A DNA stretch of 24,216 nt. Source: a virus. The position numbers and the translations under genes are program-made. Shown one piece after another: positions 4,418 through 18,262 of the stretch. The stretch covers positions 1 through 24,216 of IMG/VR virus record IMGVR_UViG_3300028767_000092; one strand, given 5' to 3'. Position 1 is the stretch's first letter. Every line of letters starts with the position of its first letter. The notes below the pieces were generated by a model that was not told the DNA's origin, did no database searches, and saw only the letters and a program-made list of their open reading frames with translations.

Positions 4418-4440
4418 GGAAAATAACATGTAGCAATAAA

Positions 4441-4475
4441 TAATAAAGGCATCCTATAATAGGATGCCTTTATTA
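4441..4475. terminator. Bidirectional terminator between lysis genes and integrase
   Basis: A perfect 17-bp inverted repeat (TAATAAAGGCATCCTAT and its complement around one central base). In practice this forms a stem of about 14 bp with A-rich 5' and T-rich 3' flanks. It lies between convergent genes: the spanin ends at 4417 on plus, and the integrase ends at 4477 on minus. It can serve both. Confidence 0.85.
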
Positions 4476-4476
4476 T

Positions 4477-5655
4477 TTAAAAATTTCCGTCATGATTTTT
4501 TATCAAGTCATTGGCTTGCTGTAGATCGTGCGGTGTATAAGTGTCTGTCATTAAAATATCAGCGTGACGTGCCTGATCGCGTACCGTTATAGAGTCATAT
4601 TTTCGTAGCATATTTGTTATTCCTGTATCTTTTAATGAATAAAATTTATATGTTGATGCGAATTTCAACGGCCTCCGAACGTACTTGGACCAATAGTCAC
4701 GAAATTGTTTTTCGCTGTGGTATTCTTTTCCAGGTTTGAATTTAGTTGAAAACAGATACCAACTACCCGGATTATCGAATATTTTCAATTCTACCATTAA
4801 ATGAATCACTTTAGCCGGAAGCGTAACCGTTCCATTTTTTTTGTTTTTTGAAACATCTTCGCCTATAAATACTGTTTGATTTACCAGTGAAAAGTTTTCA
4901 AGCTTGAGTAAACTCATTTCTTTGGGTCGAATAAAGCAATAATGCAATATATAGCAGGCTAACAAATAGTATCTATTTGTGTTTCCGACATGTTCTTTTA
5001 GCTTATCCATATCTTTTTCGGATATAATGGTCCGTTGCTTTTTGATTTTATTCTTACAAATCATCATAAATCCGTCGGATGCTTTTTCTTTCGCATACCG
5101 GTGTTGAACTAGCCAACTGCAAAACATGCGTATGAATCGAAGGTAGTTATTACGAGTTTGCATGGAGTTATCTCGCTCAATGTGGATGTGCTCAATGAAA
5201 TCCTCAATAAATTCAGCATTGAACTGATAAATGTAGGTTATTTTGTTTTTCCGTGAAGCGTTCCAACGTTCAACATTAACTATATACGAGTTGTAAGATA
5301 TGTAAGTCTCTTCCCGGTATTCATTATCTGCCAACATTTTAGATATAAAACGTTTATAGTGAGTGCAAACGTCCGTAAATGTATGATAGGCTTTACCGTT
5401 TTCAGTCTCAATCCATGGGTTCCATCCACGTTCCAATTTCGAATTCAGACGAATAATAAGCCCGTCAGCATATTTACGCCTATCTCCTATCCTTTCGATA
5501 AAATTTACCTTGATTTTTTTTCTACGCATGTCGTTAATGGATGGATCAAAAGCTTTGAATCCAACGTACCATTCTTTACCAGTGTAGAGTTTTGGAGGAG
5601 TATATGATTTTATTTCCTTGAGCGAGCTGCTCTGATTTTTGAAACTTGTAGGCAT
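4477..5655 (-). CDS. int: Phage integrase, tyrosine recombinase
   Basis: A 392-residue site-specific recombinase expected to integrate the phage at the neighbouring attP. An N-terminal arm-binding region (about 25-80) is followed by a SAM-like core-binding domain (about 90-195) and the catalytic domain. Catalytic residues read as R243 (FIRPKEMSLL), a Lys near 270-273 (SKNKKNG), a degenerate box YSLKDTG where the usual H-x-x-R is Y339-x-x-K342, then R363-H364 and nucleophile Y373 (TDTYTPH). I believe the substituted box recurs among Bacteroidota phage integrases, so it need not mean inactivity. The start at 5655 opens after a poly-A leader. The gene converges on the lysis operon and reads away from attP. 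Confidence 0.9.
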   Translation of the reverse strand: MPTSFKNQSSSLKEIKSYTPPKLYTGKEWYVGFKAFDPSINDMRRKKIKVNFIERIGDRRKYADGLIIRLNSKLERGWNPWIETENGKAYHTFTDVCTHYKRFISKMLADNEYREETYISYNSYIVNVERWNASRKNKITYIYQFNAEFIEDFIEHIHIERDNSMQTRNNYLRFIRMFCSWLVQHRYAKEKASDGFMMICKNKIKKQRTIISEKDMDKLKEHVGNTNRYYLLACYILHYCFIRPKEMSLLKLENFSLVNQTVFIGEDVSKNKKNGTVTLPAKVIHLMVELKIFDNPGSWYLFSTKFKPGKEYHSEKQFRDYWSKYVRRPLKFASTYKFYSLKDTGITNMLRKYDSITVRDQARHADILMTDTYTPHDLQQANDLIKNHDGNF

Positions 5656-7644: not shown

Positions 7645-7914
7645 ATGATAGAAATTAAACTTGTTTTTTCAAATGAGGATGCTATTTCTATATTTAGAAA
7701 TGCGGGACTACTGGTAGAAATGCATGATTTTCCGATTTATTTTGGTCGCTATCATGGAGATAAAGAGGACTTAATTCCTATGTTGGCCGTAAAAAATCCA
7801 CACAATGATAAGATGGAAAAGCTTGAACCTATTTTTAGAAAATATATGGAAGCAAAAAAGAAAGAATTGTTTCTAACTCCTGAAAAATTAGATATTTACA
7901 ATTTATTTAAATAG
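7645..7914 (+). CDS. Hypothetical small early protein
   Basis: An 89-residue soluble protein, 4 nt after its upstream neighbour and ending in TAG 1 nt before the next ATG. It begins with a beta strand (MIEIKLVFSNEDA) and ends in a long charged helix (KMEKLEPIFRKYMEAKKKEL...). No catalytic motif, membrane segment or signal is visible. Tight packing in the early operon is the only clue to its role. Confidence 0.55.
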   Translation: MIEIKLVFSNEDAISIFRNAGLLVEMHDFPIYFGRYHGDKEDLIPMLAVKNPHNDKMEKLEPIFRKYMEAKKKELFLTPEKLDIYNLFK

Positions 7915-8208: not shown

Positions 8209-8294
8209 GTGAAACGGGACAATAAAAAAATATAGATGTGAACAATCTTTTAATGGAGCCCAAAGTCTCGGGGCACAACACTCACCTTTTTTTT
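8200..8294 (+). terminator. Long-loop inverted repeat with U-tract
   Basis: AAAAGGTGAGTG (8200-8211) and its exact complement CACTCACCTTTT (8279-8290) enclose 67 nt and are followed directly by more T residues (to 8294). The loop holds a further possible stem (GCCC/GGGC around 8258-8274). The left arm contains the stop of the preceding gene. It probably ends the early operon. The large structured loop leaves room for a regulatory RNA. Confidence 0.5.
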
Positions 8295-8420
8295 ATAACG
8301 ATAGAGCTAATAGCACTGGCGAGTGCGGGCGATGAACTGTCGGGGTAAGGAAAAACAAAAGCGGGCTATAATACTTCTAAAAGCATATAACCCGCCAGTG
8401 ATTTTAGCTGAGTGTTATCA
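8293..8420 (+). other. attC: attC-like site 1
   Basis: R''-like TTATAAC (8293-8299), 5-nt spacer, L'' AGCTAATAGCACTGGCG (8305-8321), L' CGCCAGTGATTTTAGCT (8393-8409), 4-nt spacer, R' GTTATCA (8414-8420). L'' and L' pair at 14 of 17 positions. It is the left end of the array. No partner R' for its R'' was found upstream, so it may mark a lost cassette or the array boundary. Confidence 0.75.
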
Positions 8421-8579
8421 TTCGTTTTTTCTTTCTTCGTCCCATTTTTGAATTGCTTCAAGTAACTTTTGAACTGTTTGCTCATGTTTTTGTGGCATAC
8501 GATTTTTAGTTACAACGGAACGAGAGCCAGCCAGTAACCGGCTAAGCTCTCCCCAATTGATTAATTCAGCAGGATTCAT
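8418..8579 (-). CDS. Cassette 1, gene b: 53-residue phage-type protein
   Basis: A 53-residue protein (begins MNPAELINWGELSRLLAG, ends KWDEERKNE). Its ATG overlaps the stop of the upstream gene by 4 nt (ATGA), and its TGA lies inside the R' core of attC site 1. The gene therefore fills the cassette to its very edge. The central SRSVVTKNRMP and the helical C-terminus are reminiscent of small proteins common in Bacteroidota phages, possibly DNA-binding. I cannot assign a function. It is opposite in orientation to the other cassette genes. Confidence 0.65.
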   Translation of the reverse strand: MNPAELINWGELSRLLAGSRSVVTKNRMPQKHEQTVQKLLEAIQKWDEERKNE

Positions 8580-8788
8580 AAAACTTCTGTTTCAAATACT
8601 ACTTCTTCTGTTTCATTACATACGATTGATACTGAACCGCCTTTGTAATCAGAAAAGTAAGAATGATTACTACTATTGTGCATTTCAATATAATCCTTGC
8701 AATACTCAAGAGAAGATTTGAAACCTAAGTTATTAGAATTAGAATCATCATTAAAGAAAATGTCGAATGTGCTGTTAGTTGAGTTCAT
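8576..8788 (-). CDS. Cassette 1, gene a: 70-residue phage-type protein
   Basis: A 70-residue acidic protein starting at ATG 8788. The frame stays open upstream, but a strong promoter -7 box at 8834-8841 lies inside that extension, so 8788 is the sensible start. The segment SLEYCKDYIEMHNSSNHSYFSDYKGGSVSIVCN (about 30-62) resembles small conserved proteins of Bacteroidota phages and mobile elements. No enzymatic motif is seen. It forms a two-gene operon with the 53-residue gene and carries its own promoter, as expected for a reversed cassette that cannot use an upstream array promoter. Confidence 0.65.
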   Translation of the reverse strand: MNSTNSTFDIFFNDDSNSNNLGFKSSLEYCKDYIEMHNSSNHSYFSDYKGGSVSIVCNETEEVVFETEVL

Positions 8789-8833
8789 AATGTTTAATTT
8801 TTTAATTGTATGTATTACTTGTTGTTTGTGATA

Positions 8834-8866
8834 CAAAGATACAACGATTGTTGCATACAATCCAAA
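8834..8866 (-). promoter_or_regulatory. Promoter inside cassette 1
   Basis: On the minus strand, TTTG (8863-8866), 21 nt, then TATCTTTG (8834-8841). This is a full match to the Bacteroidota -33/-7 consensus TTTG-N19-21-TAnnTTTG and the clearest promoter in the window. It drives the two minus-strand cassette genes, with a leader of about 40 nt. Confidence 0.75.
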
Positions 8867-8943
8867 TAATTAATGTTAAAGTTGCAACAAATGTTGTTTA
8901 TTTAACTTTGAGCTTCGAAAACGCACGGATTTCTTTCTAAAAT

Positions 8944-9083
8944 GAATGATAACGGACAACTGCTATGATTATAAGCCCAATTACGGGTGCATAGCTTTCA
9001 AACGTTAGACAAAATTTCAAGCGAGTAAATAACTTTCAATAACCGAAAAAGCGGGCTTATAAACATAGCAATTGTTATCGGTA
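8944..9083 (+). other. attC: attC-like site 2
   Basis: R'' TGATAAC (8947-8953, extending the end of cassette 1 to 8944), 7-nt spacer, L'' TGCTATGATTATAAGCCC (8961-8978), L' GGGCTTATAAACATAGCA (9053-9070), 3-nt spacer, R' GTTATCG (9074-9080, extending into cassette 2 to 9083). L'' and L' pair at 17 of 18 positions, the best stem of the four. Spacer lengths are asymmetric, as in classical attC sites. Confidence 0.82.
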
Positions 9084-9106
9084 GCTTATTCTTAATCTTT
9101 AAAACA

Positions 9107-9508
9107 ATGCCAGAAATAAGATTTCACTTAAACGAAAAGATAATGTATAATGATACTTCATCAAATTACATTAAATGTCGAATATTAGATATTCAGTCGT
9201 GTCCATATTACGAAAATTATGGCAAAGGTCCAGTTTTCGCATATAATATATACACATACAAACTAAAGTTTGAAAATGGTAAAATAGCCGATACTGTTGA
9301 ATCAGGTAGATTTAGAAAAATGCTTGAATTTTCAAATTTTAAAGTAGGTGATATAGTTCCGTACAAAAATACAAGAGGAAATATTAGAGAAACAAAAATT
9401 ACCGAGTTTAAAGAGCTTTCAGACGGTAATGTTTGGTATTATGGAAATGATACTGTAACAGATGCTATTACTTATTACCCGGTGCATCTTTCTTTAAGTT
9501 ACCGATAA
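9107..9508 (+). CDS. Cassette 2 gene: hypothetical protein with two SH3-like halves
   Basis: A 133-residue soluble protein of unknown family. It starts 33 nt after the R' core of site 2. Its TAA is embedded in the R'' core of site 3 (CGATAAC), so it spans almost the whole cassette, the usual compact cassette layout. Two similar openings, FHLNEKIMYNDTSSNYIKCRILDI (about 5-28) and FKVGDIVPYKNTRGNIRETKITEF (about 77-100), suggest a duplicated small beta-barrel (SH3/Tudor-like). That structural reading is an inference. No promoter is evident, so expression would come from upstream. Confidence 0.7.
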   Translation: MPEIRFHLNEKIMYNDTSSNYIKCRILDIQSCPYYENYGKGPVFAYNIYTYKLKFENGKIADTVESGRFRKMLEFSNFKVGDIVPYKNTRGNIRETKITEFKELSDGNVWYYGNDTVTDAITYYPVHLSLSYR

Positions 9509-9636
9509 CGACCGAGGCTATGAGTGCAGCCGATTACTGGCTACTTCGCTGCACTAAAACCGATGAAGCACATGCGAGATATAAACCTGAATAACCGATG
9601 CAGTAGGCTGCAACTGATAGCCGTGTGTTATCGTTT
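9500..9636 (+). other. attC: attC-like site 3
   Basis: R'' CGATAAC (9503-9509), 6-nt spacer, L'' GGCTATGAGTGCAGCC (9516-9531), L' GGCTGCAACTGATAGCC (9606-9622), 4-nt spacer, R' GTTATCG (9627-9633). L'' and L' pair throughout except for one mismatch and one unpaired base in L'. The resulting stem with an extra-helical base is the hallmark used by integron integrases to choose the strand. Confidence 0.82.
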
Positions 9637-9679
9637 CGGTTTTTCTTTCTTTCGATTTAAACAATTTAATATCAACTAT

Positions 9680-10174
9680 ATGAAAACTTATGTATTAACA
9701 GTTAGTGTAAAATTCCCAAAAACACACAAAAAATCGGGACAAGCAACTTATTTTACTGAACAGATATTGGGTAAATTTCCTTATGATTTACCGGATAATA
9801 GTCCGAGTAAAATACACACAATTAGAGCTAATTATCCCTTGTGGGCAAAACGTATTTCAGAAATTCAAAACGGTAAAGCAATTCTTTCTATTCGTTACTG
9901 GAGTGATAAGCCTTATAATTCAAAACAGGTCGAAATTTGCCAACTTGACAAAAATTCAGGTATTGGGATTCAATTATTAAACCTTTCTGATACTATGATA
10001 AGTGGAGCTTTGAAAAATCATGATGTAGCATTAACCAGTTTGAATGGCGGATTATCATTATCCACTATTGCAAAAAATGACGGTTTATCGCTCGAAGATT
10101 TCAAAGAATGGTTTAAAGGTTACGATTTATCACAATCAATGGCTATTATTCACTTCACTTCGTTTCGCTACTAA
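9680..10174 (+). CDS. Cassette 3 gene: conserved phage-type hypothetical protein
   Basis: A 164-residue protein from ATG 9680. The frame is open back to 9524, but that part covers attC site 3 and is rejected. The core PSKIHTIRANYPLWAKRISEIQNGKAILSIRYWSDKPYNSKQVEI (about 34-80) is typical of a protein family seen in Bacteroidota phages and may be an ASCH-like beta-barrel. This is a fold guess only. The C-terminal GLSLEDFKEWFKGYDLSQSMAIIHFTSFRY is equally characteristic. It begins 53 nt after the upstream R' and ends 18 nt before its own R'', as a cassette gene should. Function unknown. Confidence 0.75.
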   Translation: MKTYVLTVSVKFPKTHKKSGQATYFTEQILGKFPYDLPDNSPSKIHTIRANYPLWAKRISEIQNGKAILSIRYWSDKPYNSKQVEICQLDKNSGIGIQLLNLSDTMISGALKNHDVALTSLNGGLSLSTIAKNDGLSLEDFKEWFKGYDLSQSMAIIHFTSFRY

Positions 10175-10189
10175 TCTTTTTTTAAACTG

Positions 10190-10287
10190 AACGATAACGA
10201 TTAGGCTATGAAACGTATCCACTGTACAAAACTGTCAAACCGCTAAACCGCTTATGTGGCTATGTTTAATAGGCGTATGTTAGGCAG
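10190..10287 (+). other. attC: attC-like site 4
   Basis: R'' CGATAAC (10192-10198), 5-nt spacer, L'' GGCTATGAAAC (10204-10214), L' GTTTAATAGGC (10264-10274), 4-nt spacer, R' GTTAGGC (10279-10285). The L arms pair at 9 of 11 positions. R'' and R' here share only the AAC/GTT core, because R' belongs to cassette 4 and R'' to cassette 3. GTTAGGC fits the classical GTTRRRY consensus exactly, unlike the GTTATC type of the other sites. Confidence 0.75.
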
Positions 10288-10344
10288 TCGTTTATCTCTT
10301 TTCTTGTTACAAATAAAATTATTAAACACTTAAAATAAATTATT

Positions 10345-10614
10345 ATGTCTGAACAAAAAATTATCGCAACGGTAGAAATAGATTTTAAAGAAGGTAGAAA
10401 ATCAATCGAAATGGAATTAAAAAAAGGCTTTGAAATCGAAGATTGTGACGAAAACAAAGTAGTCGTTTTAAATTTGAAAAATGGTGAAACATATACTGGT
10501 ATTTTTAAAGGAATGGACGGAGACGAAGATTTAATGTTTGGTTCATTGTCTAGTGGAAGTCGAATTGGTTTAAAAGTTCATTGGGTTCGTGATTACTTGG
10601 AGGCTCTTTCTTAA
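10345..10614 (+). CDS. Cassette 4 gene: small protein with Sm/SH3-like segment
   Basis: An 89-residue acidic protein. It starts 66 nt after the upstream R' and stops 3 nt before CTGCCTAAC, the end of its cassette. The N-terminal half alternates charged strands (IIATVEIDFKEGRKSIEMELKKGFEIE). The C-terminal half, VVVLNLKNGETYTGIFKGMDGDEDLMFGSLSSGSRIGLKVHWV (about 40-81), has the look of a small Sm/Hfq-like or SH3 beta-barrel (LKNGETYTG.F). RNA or nucleic-acid binding is conceivable but untested. A-rich leader, no clear promoter of its own. Confidence 0.7.
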   Translation: MSEQKIIATVEIDFKEGRKSIEMELKKGFEIEDCDENKVVVLNLKNGETYTGIFKGMDGDEDLMFGSLSSGSRIGLKVHWVRDYLEALS

Positions 10615-10617
10615 ATG

Positions 10618-10626
10618 CTGCCTAAC
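10618..10626 (+). other. Truncated attC-like site 5 (R'' half only)
   Basis: CTGCCTAAC, the exact complement of the start of cassette 4, contains the consensus R'' GCCTAAC. No L' or GTT core follows before the recombinase start at 10678. The last site is therefore incomplete, as if the right end of the array was deleted or joined to the recombinase gene. Confidence 0.7.
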
Positions 10627-10677
10627 TACTATCTATCAAAAACGTCTATAAACTTCTAATTTTAAACTAAATATATT

Positions 10678-11517
10678 ATGAATATCGGAAACTACACACG
10701 TCAACTTTCCGAAAGTATTCGGTATAAAAGATATTCTGAAAATACGGTGAATAGCTATGTGGCTTGTATCACTAAGTTTTTACAGCATTTCGAAAAGGAA
10801 GGTTTTACAAAGCCTTCCGAGATATCGGCTGATCGGATTAAAAAGTTTTTAGGTGCGATGACTAATCCGGGAACGCATAAGGCTTATTTGTGTGCGATTA
10901 AGTATTTCTACTCAGAAGTTGGCCGTCAGCCACGGAAGTTGGATAATGTGCAGTACCCGCATAAAAGTAGAAAGTTACCTATAGTGCTTAGTCAGGAAGA
11001 AATACAGCGCATGTTTACTGCCTGTACTAATACGAAGCATAAGGTTATTCTTTCGTTGCTTTACTCTACCGGTTTGCGAGTTTCGGAATTATTGAATTTG
11101 AAGTAGTGCAATATTGACAGATCGAGAATGGTGATTAATATCATCGAAGGTAAAGGAAAAAAGGATCGTCAGGTAATGTTGCCGGAAAACATTATCCCAT
11201 TGCTCGAAAAATACTACAAGGAGTATAAACCGAAGGAATATGTTCTTAATGGTCAGTTTTCGATTCAGTATTCGCAAACAAGTGTATTGTCAGTTGTAAA
11301 GGAATTGGCAAAGAAAGCAAAGATTGACAATAAGCGTGTATATACTCACCTGATCCGTCACTGTAGTTTTACGCACATGGTCGAAAATGGTGTTGACATA
11401 AATTTAATTCAGCGATTAGCCGGTCATAATTCTGTAAAAACAACGGCTATTTATACCCATATTTCGCATAATATAGTTTCACGTATACAATCCCCGATAG
11501 CAAATATTCGATTATGA
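10678..11517 (+). pseudogene. Xer/IntI-like tyrosine recombinase interrupted by an amber codon
   Basis: A 279-codon tyrosine recombinase with an in-frame TAG at codon 143 (11104-11106), between LLNLK and CNID. A SAM-like N-terminal domain (about 5-90) precedes a complete catalytic set: R134 (GLRVSELL), K159 (EGKGKKDR), H224-x-x-R227 (THLIRH), H250 (AGHNS) and Y259 (IYTHIS). Family members usually have an aromatic residue at the interrupted place, so a TAT/TAC to TAG change explains it. No IntI-specific insert is obvious, so Xer-like is the safer family name. It starts 52 nt after the cassette array and overlaps the next ATG by 4 nt. It is the obvious candidate recombinase for the array but probably inactive in this copy, unless TAG is suppressed. 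Confidence 0.8.
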
Positions 11518-17358: not shown

Positions 17359-17733
17359 ATGAGTAACAATTTAGCAATCAAGTTGAATCTGACAAAGATT
17401 CCAGGTGCAGCATTAGTCGATTTAAAAGGAAATAATTCCACAAAAAAATGTATCATTATACCGGTAGAAGATTCCGGGTTATTTGTAGGTGAAAAAGGCG
17501 TGTATCTGAACTTAACCGGAATTGGGTACCGGGAGCCAAAGTATGAAGATACGCACTTCATAAAACAAAGCATAGATAAAGAAGCATTCACGGCCATGAG
17601 CGAAGCAGATCGCAATGCGCTGCCCATATTGGGCGGTATTCGCCCGATAGTAGTACAAACGACTCCGATGCAATCAAGTGGCGAAATGACCATAGAACCG
17701 GGTGCCGGTGATGGTAGCGATTTACCTTTCTAA
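17359..17733 (+). CDS. Candidate phage single-stranded DNA-binding protein
   Basis: A 124-residue protein with a beta-rich body (MSNNLAIKLNLTKIPGAALVDL...KKCIIIPVED...GVYLNLTGIGYREP) and a flexible Gly/acidic tail ending GDGSDLPF. Acidic tips ending in PF are the partner-docking element of bacterial SSBs (DDDIPF in E. coli). Length, tail and location in the replication block suggest an SSB-like OB-fold protein. The OB fold itself is not proven by motif. The primase-helicase ends TDLPF, so both proteins may dock on the same host or phage factor. Last gene before the 576-nt non-coding origin-like region. Confidence 0.6.
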   Translation: MSNNLAIKLNLTKIPGAALVDLKGNNSTKKCIIIPVEDSGLFVGEKGVYLNLTGIGYREPKYEDTHFIKQSIDKEAFTAMSEADRNALPILGGIRPIVVQTTPMQSSGEMTIEPGAGDGSDLPF

Positions 17734-17736
17734 TTT

Positions 17737-17848
17737 CAGAGACGAAAGTATTATTTTTCAGATCTAACTTCAGAGACGATGGTAATTCAACGGTCGGGCG
17801 CAAGTCCGGCCGTTCTTGTTTTCCAATACTCTCAAAGACGAAAGTATT
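17737..17848 (+). repeat. Three CAGAGACGAAAGTATT-type direct repeats
   Basis: CAGAGACGAAAGTATT at 17737-17752, CAGAGACGATGGTAATT at 17771-17787 and CAAAGACGAAAGTATT at 17833-17848. They surround the terminator hairpin right after the SSB-like gene. They differ from the GTAGGACG iterons further on and may be a second protein-binding array or duplication relics. Confidence 0.55.
17789..17820 (+). terminator. Terminator of the replication operon
   Basis: Stem AACGGTCGGGC (17789-17799) and GTCCGGCCGTT (17804-17814), 11 bp with two G-U pairs, closed by a GCAA tetraloop and followed by CTTGTTTT. A GNRA loop and U-rich tail are typical of intrinsic terminators. Confidence 0.75.
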
Positions 17849-17950
17849 TCAGTCGTTTGCTGATCCATGATCATTGATAAAATCCCCCTGACCCCCTATT
17901 TTTAAAAGAATCAACATTAAATAATACTTGAAAAATATTTGAACATAACC

Positions 17951-18262
17951 CGTCCTACAGACCTACAGACCTACACTATTATTATTTTTCAATAAAATTA
18001 TTATATATATATGTATAAATCATCAGTTTATGTATATTTTATGTTGTATGTCGCTGTAGGACGGTAGGCAATTATTGTATGACGCTGTAGGACGGTGTAT
18101 TTTGGTGTTGTAGGTCGGTTTATAGTTAAATATGTGCTTTGTAGGACGAAAAACACGTTTGTAGGACGCATTTTTAATACAAATAATTTGCGTATATTGT
18201 TTATTATTAGTAACTTGTACCACAAAAACCTCTTTTTGTAGGTCTGTAGGACGGTAGGACGG
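17951..18262. other. Candidate replication origin: GTAGGACG iterons
   Basis: Within a 576-nt non-coding region there are at least 11 copies of an 8-9-mer GTAGG(A/T)C(G/T). Plus-strand copies start at 18056, 18087, 18110, 18141, 18161, 18238, 18246 and 18254. Three minus-strand copies lie at 17951-17974. The outer copies form head-to-tail triplets with an 8-bp period, and the left triplet is the inverted form of the right one. Inside, GTATG(T/A)CGCTGTAGGACGG occurs twice, 31 bp apart. An AT-rich stretch (about 17975-18045) lies between the left triplet and the inner copies. Iterons plus an AT-rich unwinding segment beside replication genes suggest an origin. Confidence 0.6.

Follow-up and report, generated by a model that had tools for sequence, protein, structure and literature searches.

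The row of cassettes beside a Xer-type recombinase gene in a virus of Bacteroidota (IMG/VR virus record IMGVR_UViG_3300028767_000092, positions 1-24,216, without end repeats; this whole stretch of 24,216 nucleotides is hereafter called the window) is integron-like. It probably represents a cassette platform served by a XerA-like recombinase that lacks the insertion characteristic of IntI integrases and that would act on strand-specific folded sites. The cassettes have matched ends, their sites covary and are asymmetric between strands, an attI-like arm precedes the integrase gene, arrays of close relatives are reordered, the IntI insertion is missing from the enzyme, and the same sites are present on Bacteroidota chromosomes.

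Four cassettes make up the window array (Table 1). All the cores named in the original prediction, which concerned positions 8944-9636, are present, and the inner stems are as strong as it had described. The sites in that interval are real, but the array is longer: attC0 had been overlooked, and the row extends to the integrase gene. The left core of attC0 has no partner upstream, which fits the far end of an array. Each R' core has its partner in the next R'' core, namely GTTATCA in TGATAAC (8414/8947), GTTATCG in CGATAAC (9074/9503 and 9627/10192) and GTTAGGC in GCCTAAC (10279/10620). For the pairs 8414 to 8953 and 9074 to 9509, R' is the reverse complement of the next R'' at 11/11 tested positions, the first pair being counted with G/A at position 11. 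With the cassette ends joined, the four window sites fold well below shuffled DNA (z = -5.1, -5.8, -4.7 and -3.5).

Table 1. Coordinates of the cassette array, its cores and the adjoining integrase gene in the window.
Feature	Position	Strand	Description
attC0	8293-8420	+	TTATAAC...GTTATCA; left-most attC-like site
Cassette 0 body	8414-8953	+	matched ends GTTATCATTCGTTTT / TGATAAC
Cassette 0 ORF	8576-8860	-	94 aa; among the few cassettes breaking the orientation rule
attC1	8947-9080	+	TGATAAC...GTTATCG; 17-pair inner stem score
Cassette A body	9074-9509	+	ends matched 11/11
Cassette A ORF	9107-9508	+	133 aa; no Pfam match
attC2	9503-9633	+	CGATAAC...GTTATCG
Cassette B body	9627-10198	+	ends matched 14/15, one bulged base
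Cassette B ORF	9680-10174	+	164 aa; no Pfam match
attC3	10192-10285	+	CGATAAC...GTTAGGC; two unlike cores
Cassette C body	10279-10626	+	ends matched with one bulged base
Cassette C ORF	10345-10614	+	89 aa; weak LSM/SM-ATX similarity, below cut-off
attI-like half site	10620-10641	+	cassette core GCCTAAC, then fixed arm TACTATCTATC...
XerA-like tyrosine recombinase (cassette integrase)	10678-11517	+	279 codons; starts 51 nt past GCCTAAC
R'' cores	8947-8953; 9503-9509; 10192-10198; 10620-10626		TGATAAC; CGATAAC; CGATAAC; GCCTAAC
R' cores	8414-8420; 9074-9080; 9627-9633; 10279-10285		GTTATCA; GTTATCG; GTTATCG; GTTAGGC

A reading based on the cores alone was rejected, the hexamers GTTATC and GATAAC occurring 10 and 15 times in the window where base composition predicts about 7 and 9, which says little; the pairing of the core ends, unlike hexamer abundance, is not due to chance. 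In the window alone, a loose 8-nt test found 4 linked pairs against a mean of 1.4 in 20 shuffles, which is weak evidence, and the strong statistics for matched ends come from relatives of the window rather than from the window itself.

Relatives were collected by searching viral_contigs with the window integrase (34 loci). Alignment A1 comprised 17 integrases with a mean column identity of 71% and the catalytic residues among the invariant columns; its search of viral_contigs returned 80 loci; identity was at least 48% in 72 and then dropped to 34% and below. Only three contigs in genome_contigs were close (52-60%), the next being at 39%, giving a clade of 72 IMG/VR loci and 3 contigs from metagenome-assembled genomes (MAGs). 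Contig L036 comes from a Flavobacteriaceae MAG, genome G001, whose phylum is hence taken as Bacteroidota; among 296 genomes of that phylum, G001 scored 477 bits and the next genome 286, no other reaching as high. The integrase clade is mainly viral, since 72 viral loci stand against three close genome contigs and G001 alone scores that high. Across 50,697 phage records, even the best-matching places remained below 60% identity, with about 33% at most among the matches listed (the best 30).

The matched ends were assessed in 73 loci. Counts over this set (hairpin scanner, attI-like pattern and strict end test) include near-duplicates such as L123/L124 and L133/L134; in those termed distinct, identical cassettes or sites were collapsed. 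A linkage-blind scanner detected 213 hairpins in 340 kb upstream of the integrase and 26 in 498 kb downstream. At positions 4-7, R' and the next R'' agreed in 95 of 119 distinct phage pairs, whereas 200 shuffles averaged 6.8 and never exceeded 14. The agreement reached position 15 (0.65 there), with background from position 16 on. Position 11 agreed in only 7% of cases. R' there mostly carries G although the opposite end would require A, which gives G.T pairing on the + strand but an A.C mismatch on the minus strand; when pairs were picked on positions 4-10 only, 93/150 had G/A at position 11. A strict test over 15 nt identified 152 pairs for the + strand but a single one for the minus strand (shuffles, 0-1), located upstream (149) or downstream (3) of the integrase. 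Where more than 2 kb of upstream sequence was available, at least one strict cassette was present at 41/49 loci; the remaining 8/49 phage loci, L116 and L036 included, had none. The integron hallmark of a cassette array with complementary, cassette-specific R' and R'' is present, and all four window cassettes conform to it.

These data change the interpretation of the cores. GTTATC/GATAAC does fail the classical GTTRRRY/RYYYAAC and GTTAGGC/GCCTAAC does fit it, as originally noted, and the two types had been taken to indicate a recombinase with a relaxed or different core preference. The agreement between the two ends of a cassette (95/119) lends this no support: the phage core is cassette-specific, with only GTT(A) constant, and GTTATC/GATAAC is one such core, not a second core type. 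Because both ends of a cassette bear the core particular to it, a linear site mixes the core of the cassette on its left with that of the next one, and attC3 shows two cores because it joins the R'' of cassette B to the R' of cassette C. Nor does GTTATC distinguish the system, as GTTATAC, GTTATGC and GTTATGT are common next to true IntI genes in this phylum; phage sites do not follow the classical consensus, but GTTAT cores occur in IntI cassettes of the phylum as well. The broader proposal that these are attC-like sites between exchangeable genes, to be abandoned if no other genome carried them, is borne out by the relatives, and sites with covarying ends were found in many other genomes.

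The 42 sites aligned for covariation exclude the window lineage. Each of the nine pairs of the inner stem changes on both sides in some sequences, with 129 double-change cells against 45 in shuffled data and 88.6% paired cells against 64%. RNAalifold alone recovered only these nine inner pairs, missing the outer core pairs because they hardly vary. When circularised, the + strand was the more stable in 112/114 distinct phage sites, 62/65 chromosomal XerA-like sites and 19/23 IntI sites (same orientation). As in attC, an imperfect stem is kept by compensatory changes and one strand is favoured; the sites are unlike classical attC in their 15-nt matched ends, preferred G.T at position 11 and covarying inner stem.

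The same integrase might instead act on double-stranded DNA. Either end of the hairpin, an R core with its L arm, would then be a plain Xer-like core site, and the hairpin itself a by-product of two inverted copies. An enzyme without the IntI insertion would suit this, XerA relatives work on double-stranded dif, and the R and L arms have a similar consensus and could be two inverted binding sites. Such a mechanism, however, gives no reason why R' should be complementary, over 15 nt, to the opposite end of its own cassette, and explains neither the covariation of the inner arms nor the constant placement of G.T on one strand; it is considered unlikely.

Under the preferred reading of strand-specific folded sites, a cassette in + coordinates would comprise an imperfect hairpin site, a gene, and a core complementary to the right end of that site. 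In the circular cassette, the two ends and the inner arms of the + strand would pair into a single long stem. The recombinase of the clade would bind this folded single strand, with an R arm of 15 bp and an L arm of similar make-up, cut the core at AA|C, and link the cassette to the attI-like site directly ahead of the integrase gene; substrate, cleavage point and catalysis are here inferred from sequence. Insertion at the attI-like site, together with excision between sites, would reorder the array, and the G.T pairs at position 11 would favour folding of the + strand over the minus strand, thereby fixing cassette orientation.

The attI-like element consists of NNNTAAC followed by TACTATATGTA or a near variant, and a simple expression located it upstream of the integrase in 51/73 loci. 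Its position and pattern are conserved ahead of the integrases of relatives while the core varies, so that a putative attI lies beside the integrase gene. The extent of the cassette was addressed through homology boundaries of cassettes common to different arrays at 88% identity or above. No right end of homology lay at R'; those at a site coincided with the next site's left core, 9 of them in both loci and 8 in a single locus. Left ends coincided with the left core in 11 cases and with R' in 2 cases (counting both loci) or 4 (counting one), while 53 shared-cassette alignments ended elsewhere than at sites. These boundaries suggest that the cassette unit usually consists of hairpin, gene and closing core. 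The classical direction, with a gene followed by its own site, was rejected on the right-hand boundaries and on the attI-like half site. Starting at the attI-like site, the polarity of the array is classical but the genes are reversed: the longest ORF points towards the integrase in 104/122 phage cassettes and away from it in 8, 10 cassettes having no ORF of 50 aa, so that phage genes do not run away from attI as in the classical arrangement.

Natural cassette shuffling is observed between L023 and L025, whose integrase regions are 98.75% identical and in which four cassette blocks (287-340 nt, 98.8-100% identical) differ in order and place. Similarly, L019, L020, L021 and L022 have a common integrase region but different first cassettes, identity stopping at TAAC. 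For the window cassettes themselves, relatives of the cassette B gene occur in 15 viral contigs apart from the two near-identical ones; 9 are bounded by matched ends and 6/15 (L282, L286, L288, L293, L294 and L296) lack matched cassette ends. Cassettes A and C had no relatives besides the two near-identical contigs. In L289 (1340-1854) and L290 (2478-2992), the cassette body is 94% identical with unrelated hairpins on both sides, from which it follows that hairpins can be exchanged separately from the gene; shared blocks that omit the hairpin, in L289/L290 and in L142/L153, are not predicted by the simple model.

The window integrase matches Pfam Phage_integrase at 121.9 bits and falls below the curated cut-offs of both TIGR02249, the IntI family (174.5 bits against 265), and NCBIfam XerA (193.7 against 220). 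Among solved relatives, archaeal XerA scored 165.8 bits, a XerC-like protein 156.7 and IntI4 149.8, the last matching in two pieces separated by 20 profile residues against 63 of IntI4. The distance from the R motif to HxxR was 86-94 in 61/70 phage proteins (9 could not be measured with the expression used) and 91-93 in 50/51 chromosomal relatives, compared with 133-135 in 15/16 IntI proteins. The IntI insertion of about 43 residues, with helix I2, is absent from both the phage and the chromosomal XerA-like groups. The recombinase is not a standard IntI, as shown by the two-piece IntI4 match, the score below the TIGR02249 cut-off and the short motif spacing. The enzyme has the Xer fold and catalytic residues with no extra domains, and its AlphaFold model (pTM 0.58) shows little beyond that fold. 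In a quick tree, the 45 phage-clade rows lay on one side of a branch with SH-aLRT 100. The chromosomal XerA-like group as sister (tree support 86) was not upheld as the sole option, since AU tests reject neither it nor a grouping with IntI (p = 0.63 and 0.66).

The window gene itself has an in-frame TAG at codon 143 (11104-11106), shared with the two near-identical contigs L002 and L003; relatives have a sense codon at this place, and those inspected have intact integrase copies. A role of TAG as sense codon was rejected, as another window gene (7645-7914) ends in TAG and relatives of the integrase have a sense codon in place of codon 143. The window array may be frozen with an inactive integrase, or served in trans.

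Other recombinases also occur in these viruses. A second recombinase-like gene on the minus strand of the window (4477-5655, 392 aa) has a weak SAM-like integrase domain and is perhaps the lysogeny integrase; a 21-nt perfect palindrome (4437-4479) lies beside it. In L156, a phage cassette (4561-5541) encodes a second tyrosine recombinase of 326 aa. Elsewhere in the window, positions 670-1037 encode a tail-fibre-like protein in which a unit of about 30 residues (GLSAYEIAVANGFVGTEAEWLASL...) is present in four near-identical copies, and the intergenic region 17731-18262, containing short direct and inverted repeats of which several are built on CTGTAGGACGGT, is perhaps an origin or regulatory region.

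The same type of array extends to the bacterial chromosome. XerA-like matches at 1e-60 were found in 80/296 sampled Bacteroidota genomes, and 51 of the matching loci were taken with their flanks. Strict cassettes were present at 31/51 of these loci (82 in total, up to nine in L269; two shuffles gave 0) and absent from 20/51, indicating a gene-exchange platform on Bacteroidota chromosomes. Several of the contigs span millions of bases, and the arrays on these are therefore chromosomal. The cassettes lay beyond the integrase stop codon in 66 cases, upstream as in phages in 15 and elsewhere in 1, and their genes pointed away from the attI-like end in 73/82 and towards it in 6. Covariance model R1, derived from phage sites excluding the window lineage, was scanned over 86 sources at E 0.1 and gave 95 matches, 94 in the 51 XerA-like loci and 1 in the window; 84 of the 94, in 35 loci, persisted at E 0.01. 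It detected 1/4 window sites, attC1 scoring 42.8 bits (E 9.8e-05), and had 0 matches at 16 IntI loci and 0 at 18 archaeal XerA-like loci. No cassette was common to the phages and the fetched chromosomal loci by blastn at 1e-5. A few matched ends were also seen in loci with more distant enzymes (L048, L062).

True IntI loci of the phylum served as control and bear on a further alternative, namely that the sites are classical attC clusters without a local IntI (CALINs), moved in trans by a host IntI, the adjoining integrase having another purpose. True IntI genes above the curated cut-off are common in the phylum (57/198 genomes), and phage CALINs with classical attC are described in the available text of PMC9892861. 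The window-type sites nevertheless adjoin the clade integrase and stop at its attI-like element, R1 matches none of the 16 IntI loci, and IntI cassette ends match to position 10-11 only, without the G/A rule; this explanation is accordingly held to be very improbable. In the 16 control loci, handled in the same way, 34/39 cassettes pointed away, a set that includes a few chance pairs. The true IntI loci L209-L224 have ends matched to position 10-11 and GTTAT cores. The frequency of IntI in 57/198 genomes contrasts with surveys reporting few complete integrons in Bacteroidota, the accessible portion of a 2022 survey listing a complete integron in one Bacteroidetes species only (PMC9024848).

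The phage sites may also contribute to translation. Among long phage sites (110-132 nt), 57/99 contain an ATG from which an open frame extends across R' over 30 codons or more, compared with 6/99 on the other strand and 4/53 among short sites. In the window, an ATG within attC2 is in open frame with the gene of cassette B, and L289 and L290 share a cassette gene that is joined in each to a different leader encoded by the site. Phage genes may thus have been turned because the site supplies a translation start. The ATG frames would also suit hairpins that are RNA elements (terminators or translation leaders), in which case the mosaic would arise by homologous recombination at conserved repeats. 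Yet the matched ends flank a whole gene (median phage cassette length, 403 nt), which no local RNA hairpin explains; different sites, at 54% mean column identity, offer little common sequence for homologous exchange; and a recombinase gene stands at the end of the array. As a full account this is extremely improbable, although the sites may act in translation as well as in recombination.

With respect to cargo, ten long phage proteins (one per locus, of 48 of at least 120 aa) included three DNA methylases and two TET-associated glycosyltransferases, and ten chromosomal proteins (of 62 of at least 150 aa) included two GmrSD-type restriction enzymes and one further protein with an AIPR domain. 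The cargo loci noted were L232, L234, L231, L171, L152 and L137 (GmrSD-type and AIPR; methylases and TET-associated glycosyltransferases). This small and length-biased sample, which is not a statistic, hints at an arms race over DNA modification.

The array works like an integron but fails the test for IntI, the defining domain being absent. In the available text of PMC9668308, the IntI-specific domain is called a defining characteristic of integrons; as this insertion was tested for and is missing, the platform is not an IntI-type integron. Acquisition of helix I2, stated to be present in no other protein, is held to have enabled recombination of folded single strands, with direct proof of its role missing because deletion of I2 kills IntI1 (PMC7790495, in the portion available). 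A viral origin of integrons has also been proposed (PMC4792948, likewise in part). A natural cassette system without I2, with polarity marked otherwise, makes the I2 question testable. In the openly licensed literature searched, no account of XerA-type cassette arrays was found. It is conceivable, and proposed here only tentatively, that a second class of integron based on Xer-type recombinases without I2 is widespread in Bacteroidota chromosomes and phages, with folded strands marked by G.T, being either a survivor of a pre-I2 stage or an independent invention, and that both sides use it to stock restriction and DNA-modifying enzymes against each other.

Strand orientation in classical attC sites is set by extrahelical bases read by helix I2. 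IntI integrons (class 1, Vibrio, chromosomal) share with the present system a recombinase beside an attI-like site, an array of cassettes with a cassette-specific core at both ends, the GTT core, a folded site with one better-folding strand, and shuffling. They differ in that here the IntI insertion is lacking, the R arms match across 15 nt and carry G.T at position 11, phage genes face the integrase with a start codon often within the site, and on many chromosomes the XerA-like array lies past the integrase stop codon.

Chromosome dimer resolution at double-stranded dif is the known role of XerA/XerC-like recombinases. These are the closest solved relatives by sequence and fold (PDB 5hxy, 4a8e), with the same catalytic-motif spacing as the clade; the 18 archaeal XerA-like loci scanned differ in having no such sites. 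In other bacteria, genes can also reside between Xer-recombinase sites, as in the pdif modules of Acinetobacter. These modules differ in their short double-stranded dif-like sites and are not known to have cassette-specific matched ends or an array-linked integrase.

Among viruses, the phage integrons and CALINs of PMC9892861 are similar in combining attC-like sites and cassettes in phages, some with Bacteroidota hosts (Polaribacter phage P12002L). In the text available, their attC are classical and recognised by IntI1, the CALINs are without integrase, and no Xer-type cassette integrase is described. A further parallel lies in the integration of CTXphi by host XerCD, in which a folded phage strand is recombined by Xer enzymes without helix I2 (PMC4792948, PMC7790495, as far as their available portions go); according to these, CTXphi has neither a recombinase of its own nor cassettes, whereas here the phage encodes both the enzyme and the array.
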